Source: Flavobacterium tructae (lineage in GTDB: Bacteria > Bacteroidota > Bacteroidia > Flavobacteriales > Flavobacteriaceae). Taken from it: 64,000 bases of DNA. The translations under genes were made by a program, and so were the position numbers. The stretch lies in contig NZ_MUHH01000032.1 in assembly GCF_002217475.1 (NCBI RefSeq), forward strand, positions 1 through 64,000. The letters are read 5' to 3'. Positions 52,594 through 53,173 of this stretch are shown piece after piece (positions within the stretch are counted from its first letter, which is position 1; the number at the start of each line of letters is the position of its first letter). The notes below the pieces were generated by a model. The model searched no databases. It was given only the letters and a program-made list of their open reading frames with translations, and was not told the origin of the DNA.

Positions 52594-52603
52594 AATGGCC
52601 GTA

Positions 52604-52667
52604 AGCTATAAGCTTTAAGCTGTAGGCTTTTCAGAAAGCTTAAAGCCTATTGCCTAAAGCTTAAAGC
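52604..52667. repeat. Left 50-bp direct repeat of the four-helix-bundle cassette
   Basis: 52618-52667 (AGCTGTAGGCTTTTCAGAAA... to ...CTTAAAGC) is repeated at 53046-53095 with 48 of 50 bases identical. Each copy is itself an imperfect palindrome of AAGCTTTAAGC and GCTTAAAGC words. It ends 8 bases before the start of the inserted gene. Confidence 0.9.
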
Positions 52668-52675
52668 TACAAAAA

Positions 52676-53032
52676 ATGAGAGATTTTAAAAAATATGACA
52701 TTTGGCAGCTAAGCCATTCTTTCACCTTAGAGATTTATAAAATAACTTCTACTTTTCCAAAAGAAGAAATTTATGGATTAACAAGTCAAATAAGAAGAGC
52801 CTCTTCATCAATTCCAACTAATATTAGTGAAGGATGTGGGAGAAATAGCGACAAAGAGTTCAATCAATTTCTCAACATAGCTTTGGGTTCTGCAAATGAA
52901 ACCGAATATCTTTTGATTTTAATTAAAGACCTGCAATATCTGAACAATGAAGTTGCAGAAAATCTAATCGAGAAAATCAATAATATAAAAAGCAAAATTT
53001 ATAAATTGAAGCAAGTACTAATTAAGCCGTAG
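52676..53032 (+). CDS. Four-helix-bundle protein (23S rRNA IVS / Avd-like)
   Basis: 118 residues. The family pattern is complete: KKYDIWQLSHSFTLEIYKIT, then FPKEEIYGLTSQIRRASSSIPTNISEGCGR and FNQFLNIALGSANETEYLLILIKDL. Such proteins are encoded in 23S rRNA intervening sequences; related Avd proteins serve diversity-generating retroelements. They are basic and bind nucleic acid. No reverse transcriptase or rRNA gene is nearby. The gene interrupts groES-groEL and is bounded by long direct repeats, which suggests insertion as a unit. Function in this setting is unknown. Confidence 0.92.
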   Translation: MRDFKKYDIWQLSHSFTLEIYKITSTFPKEEIYGLTSQIRRASSSIPTNISEGCGRNSDKEFNQFLNIALGSANETEYLLILIKDLQYLNNEVAENLIEKINNIKSKIYKLKQVLIKP

Positions 53033-53173
53033 GCTATAAGCTATAAGCTGTAGGCTTTTCAGGAAGCTTAAAGCATATTGCCTAAAGCTTAAAGCAATAA
53101 TAAAATAAATACTAATCCAGTCAGTAGAGAGAGCATAAAGCTTAAAGCCTACTGCCTAAAGCAATAATAAAAA
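53031..53173. repeat. Right direct repeat and partial third copy
   Basis: 53046-53095 is the 48/50 match to the left repeat. A shorter third copy (GCTTAAAGCCTACTGCCTAA, 53139-53158) and a duplicated GCAATAATAAAA word follow, ending at the groEL start. Confidence 0.88.

Follow-up and report, generated by a model that had tools for sequence, protein, structure and literature searches.

A PF05635 four-helix-bundle gene between five-heptad arrays at the groES-groEL junction of Flavobacterium tructae: a probable variant of the rRNA intervening sequence at an mRNA junction

Introduction

How a small additional gene can reside between two genes of an essential operon is the question raised by the groES-groEL junction in the 64,000-nt stretch of Flavobacterium tructae DNA analysed here (contig NZ_MUHH01000032.1, positions 1 to 64,000; hereafter the window). 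The two chaperonin genes lie 580 nt apart, and the gap is filled exactly by a hairpin element carrying a gene of the intervening sequence (IVS) type. An earlier note on this DNA had recognised both the spacing and the type of gene, correctly as judged by the coordinates and by family assignment, and had proposed that 50-bp direct repeats plus the gene form a mobile cassette that inserted in the operon, perhaps processed like an IVS. Here we examine what bounds the gene, how widely this arrangement occurs, how old it is at individual junctions, and which of several explanations, i.e. an RNA-level intervening sequence, a DNA element, ordinary operon hairpins or a recent cassette, best accounts for it.

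Results and Discussion

Layout of the groES-groEL element

The repeats around the gene consist of 7-nt units arranged in arrays, each array having exactly five (Table 1). Two arrays are of the AG type, with RGC spaced at 7 nt (52597, 52604, 52611, 52618 and 52625, and again 53025, 53032, 53039, 53046 and 53053), and three are complementary, with GCN units at the same spacing (52638 to 52666, 53066 to 53094 and 53133 to 53161). The direct repeats described in the earlier note are real, but are longer than it had them, extending over 79 nt at 91% identity (52598-52676 and 53026-53104), and their heptad make-up had been missed; it was right that each copy is palindromic, the left one self-pairing at -31.9 kcal/mol, and that a third, partial copy precedes groEL (53132-53172). 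These 79-bp direct repeats are two whole palindromes placed around the gene and represent a local elaboration, since the arrangement is limited to the groES-groEL locus and its near relatives, whilst the general pattern is inverted, i.e. an arm W, the ORF and the reverse complement of the arm (W - ORF - rcW).

Table 1. Features of the groES-groEL junction (window coordinates)
Feature	Position	Strand	Family match or pairing
groES (Cpn10), upstream neighbour	52318..52593	+	PF00166, E 1.5e-34
5' arm, five tandem heptads, RGC per 7 nt; begins 3 nt past the groES stop	52597..52631	+	
Complementary array, five heptads, GCN per 7 nt; forms the left palindrome with 52597-52631	52638..52672	+	duplex -31.9 kcal/mol
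118-aa four-helix-bundle ORF, S23 / IVS protein	52676..53032	+	PF05635 / TIGR02436
Second AG-type array, five heptads; overlaps the final ORF codons	53025..53059	+	
Second complementary array, five heptads (right palindrome)	53066..53100	+	pairs with 5' arm, -24.2 kcal/mol
Third complementary array, five heptads, unpaired half copy; stops 6 nt short of the groEL start	53133..53167	+	pairs with 5' arm, -24.6 kcal/mol
groEL (Cpn60), downstream neighbour	53174..54802	+	PF00118, E 7.3e-79

Folding of the whole gap is more favourable than that of 100 out of 100 dinucleotide shuffles (z -3.4), and the sequences bounding the gene are complementary and able to form a stem, as those of an IVS are. In the minimum-energy fold, however, the left palindrome closes on itself and the right arrays pair with one another, and neither pairs across the gene; this counts against the IVS-like reading, and suggests that the working form at groES-groEL may be a hairpin on each side of the gene instead of a single long stem. 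No rRNA was found at the locus, the element lying inside neither a 23S nor a 16S helix, and an Rfam search returned nothing above gathering score, just chance matches to the palindrome.

The PF05635 protein

The 118-aa ORF matches PF05635 (23S_rRNA_IVP, E 1.9e-41) as well as TIGR02436 (four helix bundle), and the closest solved structures are 2gsc (XCC0516) and 2rld. PF05635 proteins, whose function is not known, include the S23p of Xanthomonas, which is a toroidal homopentamer (PMC4990558). The family exceeds its cut-off in 113 of 148 Bacteroidota genomes. Domain profile searches of the 118-aa protein found no transposase or recombinase domain, PF05635 alone being matched, and specifically no Y1 (HUH) transposase, the domain by which a REP/RAYT system would be recognised; a defence library also gave no match to it. 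The fold is related to that of Avd, the accessory protein of diversity-generating retroelements (DGRs), and a resemblance is detectable (NF033474, E 0.002; PHROG 3206, E 0.001), but identification as a DGR Avd was rejected, since the score is 18.4 bits against a cut-off of 80 bits and reverse transcriptase is unlinked. Dependence on reverse transcriptase was likewise rejected, as genomes with and without one carry approximately equal numbers of PF05635 genes (6.0 and 5.4, respectively; 61 genomes).

Paralogues and solo hairpins in the F. tructae genome

The genome holds 12 PF05635 genes, every one of them between co-directional genes, at neighbour pairs that include groES-groEL, mraY-murD, sufC-sufD, ruvC-hemW and folE-cysS (names other than groES-groEL being read from the translated ends and not from a family search). 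By inspection, an upstream arm and its downstream reverse complement are clear at 11 of the 12, with different words each time (the locus designated L024 is doubtful), and rRNA was beside none of the PF05635 genes at 15 loci checked. A BLAST search with the groES-groEL arms finds some 30 further matching places in the genome. A few of these matches are the gene itself, and most of those inspected are gene-less hairpins between two co-directional genes, so that the genome search proposed in the earlier note does find the repeat without the gene, as solo hairpins.

Arm complementarity and orientation across bacteria

PF05635 loci were collected by a profile scan seeded with a four-protein alignment, and arm complementarity was scored by aligning the 150 nt upstream locally with the reverse-complemented 150 nt downstream and taking the best match. 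The median score for 129 PF05635 genes from many phyla is 30, compared with 16 (95th percentile 23) when flanks are swapped between loci. Scores of at least 24 are reached by 71% of 123 PF05635 genes and 7% of control genes (66% vs 6.7% with PF05635 genes taken out of the controls) and, in a replication on 28 loci sampled later across the phylum, by 50% of loci vs 3.2% of mismatched pairs. Some 30% of PF05635 genes are without clear arms at the threshold used, which counts against the IVS-like reading.

Placement of the elements is equally regular. Both neighbours are co-directional with the PF05635 gene in 86% of cases overall and 97% in Flavobacterium, vs 53%, and the median distance is 2 nt from the upstream stop codon to the start of the arms and 8 nt from their end to the downstream start codon. 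Where species share a junction, a locus's own arms outscore species-crossed arms in 76% of 208 pairs (which share species and are hence non-independent), and similar proteins are accompanied by similar arms even across junctions (mean 0.49 at protein similarity of at least 0.7 vs 0.19, from only 11 pairs). By these comparisons of sequence the arms vary from species to species, tending to remain complementary within a locus.

A heptad rule

When 157 loci spanning many phyla are compared, a typical 5' arm consists of tandem units in which AG recurs at intervals of 7 nt (8 in some cases), and its reverse complement forms the 3' arm. Lag-7 identity is 0.384 and 0.371 in the two flanks, compared with mostly 0.27-0.30 at lags not divisible by 7, and 0.30 in control genes. 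AG pairs at 7-nt spacing number 278 in the 5' flank against a background of 73, and 75 in the 3' flank, where CT mirrors them; in the replication set the 5' count is 66 vs 15 and the 3' count 8. Inward AG heptad runs of at least three units on both sides are found at 27.4% of the 157 PF05635 genes and at 0.35% of 2016 others, and the same two-sided test gives 0% at period 6 and 11.5% at period 8, the latter value indicating that some arrays consist of 8-mers.

Among exact run lengths five forms a secondary peak, with 24 of the 157 loci against 0.1 expected after shuffling, although in a strict count run lengths of 1-2 remain the commonest class, which counts against the IVS-like reading. Strict AG-heptad hairpins are in no excess in genomes with 9-12 PF05635 genes over those with one, nor over other periods, a comparison that is weak because it uses small 200-kb samples and a strict detector; the possibility that solo hairpins are spread in trans was discarded by the same, weak test.

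Gain, loss and age at shared junctions

At mraY-murD approximately 20 relatives have 0-1 nt between the stop and the start codon, whereas in three genomes (F. tructae, with 465 nt, and two relatives) the junction is filled by 465-473 nt with both codons intact. On this sequence comparison the mraY-murD element is a precise gain, and no target-site duplication was seen there. The proposal of a mobile cassette in an essential operon is to this extent upheld, in that a unit is gained at junctions and leaves its neighbours undamaged; it is the inverted heptad arms, however, and not direct repeats, that define the unit.

A precise gain of this kind would also suit a DNA element, in which the heptad arrays would be terminal inverted repeats read as DNA or as single-stranded hairpins and the protein an accessory to recombination. 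The gene's sense orientation would then follow simply from having to be transcribed from the host operon. The geometry of the arms, which is that of inward terminal repeats, the scattering of solo copies through the genome and the tracking of protein type by arm type are all consistent with such an element. We nevertheless consider it unlikely, as the protein has no transposase or recombinase domain, no target-site duplication is visible at mraY-murD, the arms are different at every locus within one genome, and sense insertion between a stop and a start codon is unexpected for a DNA transposon.

The sufC-sufD junction (L470-L492) is a good model for comparing forms, since many species carry a solo heptad hairpin there and others an element with the gene: seven species have the W-gene-rcW arrangement and 12 a gene-less spacer of 58-88 nt, nearly all of these being solo hairpins with differing words. 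In 17 of 19 cases complementarity is higher within the locus than the median obtained across loci, and against dinucleotide shuffles a folding z below -2 is found for 10 of the 12 short spacers.

Of 92 Flavobacterium loci compared at the groES-groEL junction, 12 are filled, all with AAGC heptads and a protein of a single lineage. Two loci whose flanking coding DNA is 98.4% identical (L047 and L048) differ in that one is filled and the other empty, and at a further locus (L038) the third array alone remains. Distances between the genes track those of groESL (rho 0.72), the lineage is found in divergent Flavobacterium, and dN/dS within it is about 0.06, indicating strong purifying selection. Selection and rough congruence with groESL together argue, from the sequences compared, that the gene is an old junction-specific lineage with many losses or swaps and not a one-off recent insertion, contrary to the earlier note; its expectation of empty sites among relatives was borne out, but the same gene recurs in divergent Flavobacterium, which goes half way towards the old, stable operon member that it had set against a cassette. 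Empty groES-groEL alleles have no spacer in common with filled ones, which counts against the IVS-like reading. Homologous replacement of the operon by recombination would fit the patchiness as well as excision does, and the missing common spacer favours replacement as its source.

These observations bear on two further explanations. That a 50-bp direct repeat and its gene form a recent cassette which inserted between groES and groEL, and moves via the direct repeats, would agree with the reality of those repeats and with the absence of the gene from most relatives, but is very improbable and largely refuted by the age of the lineage and by loci (L056, L065, L350-L352, L362) at which the same gene has single inverted arms. 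The other is that ordinary intergenic hairpins insulate or stabilise operon messages, and that the PF05635 gene has long belonged to the operon and autoregulates its hairpin, without being mobile itself; its patchiness would arise via loss and recombination. In favour of this are the age of the groES-groEL lineage, its congruence with groESL and the purifying selection on it, as well as the number of solo hairpins, which exceeds that of filled ones; against it stand the 12 paralogues at unrelated junctions of one genome, the precise gain at mraY-murD where relatives have 0-1 nt, and an association of PF05635 genes with inverted arms far above that of other small genes, and we regard it as distinctly unlikely.

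Other gene families with similar arms

Inverted arms scoring at least 24 also accompany other small standalone genes at frequencies above controls (GxxExxY 67%, GIY-YIG 46%, DUF559 40%; 15-27 loci each). In Flavobacteriaceae (L232-L321) each family has typical arm words, namely TTTGCG/TCTGTG for GxxExxY, TCGACTNCGCTC for GIY-YIG and CCCCTCCC for DUF559, and it looks from these sequences as if there are several protein-repeat pairings. A GxxExxY gene in the window (47950-48432; PF13366 PDDEXK_3, 48025-48396) has a MiaB-type radical SAM gene on one side and a sigma-54 regulator on the other, and its arms are GCCACAGATTAA...AATCATTTTAATCTGTGGC (score 34); as judged by sequence its layout is that of the PF05635 element, with a different cargo and different arm words. 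A relative's GxxExxY gene (L104:4971-5343) has arms GCCACGAATTTCAC.../...GAAATTCGTGGC that are complementary but unlike those of the window copy, and because the upstream sequences resemble one another the junction is probably the same; here, too, the arms appear to have changed together.

Two other arrangements were encountered. In a Flammeovirgaceae MAG (L152:15190-15766) a gene that reads by eye as a REP-associated Y1 transposase has strong inverted repeats (score 73) in a classical RAYT-type layout, and in two genomes (L132:6468-8859 and L129:10417-12808) a long gene reading as a fadB-type 3-hydroxyacyl-CoA dehydrogenase has TATACAATA-type inverted arrays (scores 76 and 46, respectively).

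Proposed mechanism

The IVS-like anatomy suggested in the earlier note, i.e. a PF05635 gene inside complementary arms, is well supported, and we consider it probable (approximately 60%) that the element is a variant of the rRNA intervening sequence that has settled at an mRNA junction, and that its protein binds the five-heptad arms. The anatomy, sense orientation, placement and complementarity of these elements, their gain and loss, and the selection acting on the protein can be read from the sequences; as to RNA cleavage and protein binding of the arrays, we infer the following. The transcribed arms would pair, leaving the gene in a loop or between two hairpins, as in the 23S rRNA IVS. The stem would then be cut, with RNase III as a candidate, such that the flanking genes would form separate messages with no coding sequence lost. 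Five heptads per array and a homopentameric homologue suggest one unit per subunit, and the five-heptad arms are likely to be read by a pentameric PF05635 protein, the pentamer being known from the homologue. Array-bound protein may then protect, process or spread elements that bear its own type of array.

Connection of PF05635 to a defined periodic nucleic-acid array would provide a first testable candidate ligand for the family, and the anatomy of the element would explain how PF05635 genes reside harmlessly between essential operon genes. Heptamer repeats of distant bacteria that have been considered orphan regulatory sites would also come under a single scheme, and the establishment of an intervening sequence within protein-coding transcripts would become open to study.

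Comparison with known systems

IVSs with S23p ORFs are described in the 23S rRNA of Coxiella, Leptospira and Brucella, that of Coxiella comprising a 28-bp stem around the ORF that is excised by RNase III (PMC4990558), and also in the 16S and 23S rRNA genes of CPR bacteria (PMC11270868). An rRNA IVS is cut out of its transcript by RNase III, and the ends are not religated. The elements considered here resemble rRNA IVSs in placing the same protein family in a stem of terminal inverted sequences, with the ORF sense to the host transcript, and in existing in versions with and without the ORF. They differ in that elements of the F. tructae type occupy protein-coding operon junctions instead of an rRNA helix, in that their arms are heptad arrays, and in that the protein at the mRNA junction is under strong purifying selection whereas the Coxiella protein is decaying (PMC4990558). 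PF05635 genes have also been recorded in cas loci (PMC3936711) and near DGRs (PMC10053308). The element resembles REP/RAYT systems in that inverted repeats flank a gene for a small protein and solo repeats are numerous and scattered, but it is without a Y1 transposase domain, and its arms are degenerate heptad arrays that vary by locus. It is also unlike an insertion sequence or transposon, having no transposase domain, arms that vary per locus and no duplication at mraY-murD.

Parallels to the arms are provided by heptamer arrays. The TAACTGA direct repeats reported as orphan regulator sites from Beggiatoaceae, Cyanobacteria and Bacteroidetes (MacGregor 2015, PMC4679880) are likewise tandem 7-nt units just 5' of start codons, in one case reversed after a stop codon, and carry the CT phase that matches the 3' arms of PF05635 elements; unlike the latter, they are described as single-sequence sites and not as inverted pairs around a gene. 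The expectation that most TAACTGA arrays carry a PF05635 gene was rejected by a scan of Bacteroidota, in which 2 of 21 places adjoin one and several others are mirrored hairpins. In the paired tandem repeat arrays of Geobacter metallireducens (classes 1-3), read as IHF/HU-type regulator sites (PMC2700814), units of 7 or 8 nt are repeated in tandem and the two arrays of a pair are inverted. Class 3 consists of five heptads MTYCTGA, and one such pair sits between proB and proA; a link to PF05635 is not drawn in that work. Among the open-access papers searched, none connects PF05635 genes with heptad arrays, or with inverted arms placed at an mRNA junction.

These strands can be combined in a more tentative reading, which we hold to be possible though somewhat against the odds: PF05635 pentameric rings that read five heptads would constitute a widespread IVS-like class at mRNA-operon junctions, the heptamer arrays of Beggiatoaceae, Cyanobacteria and Geobacter would be its solo forms, and the GxxExxY, DUF559 and GIY-YIG genes would belong to sister elements with arm words of their own. 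IVSs with S23p ORFs in rRNA genes and orphan heptad arrays were each already known; what appears new, relative to the open-access papers searched, is the joining of PF05635 genes to inverted heptad arms at mRNA junctions.
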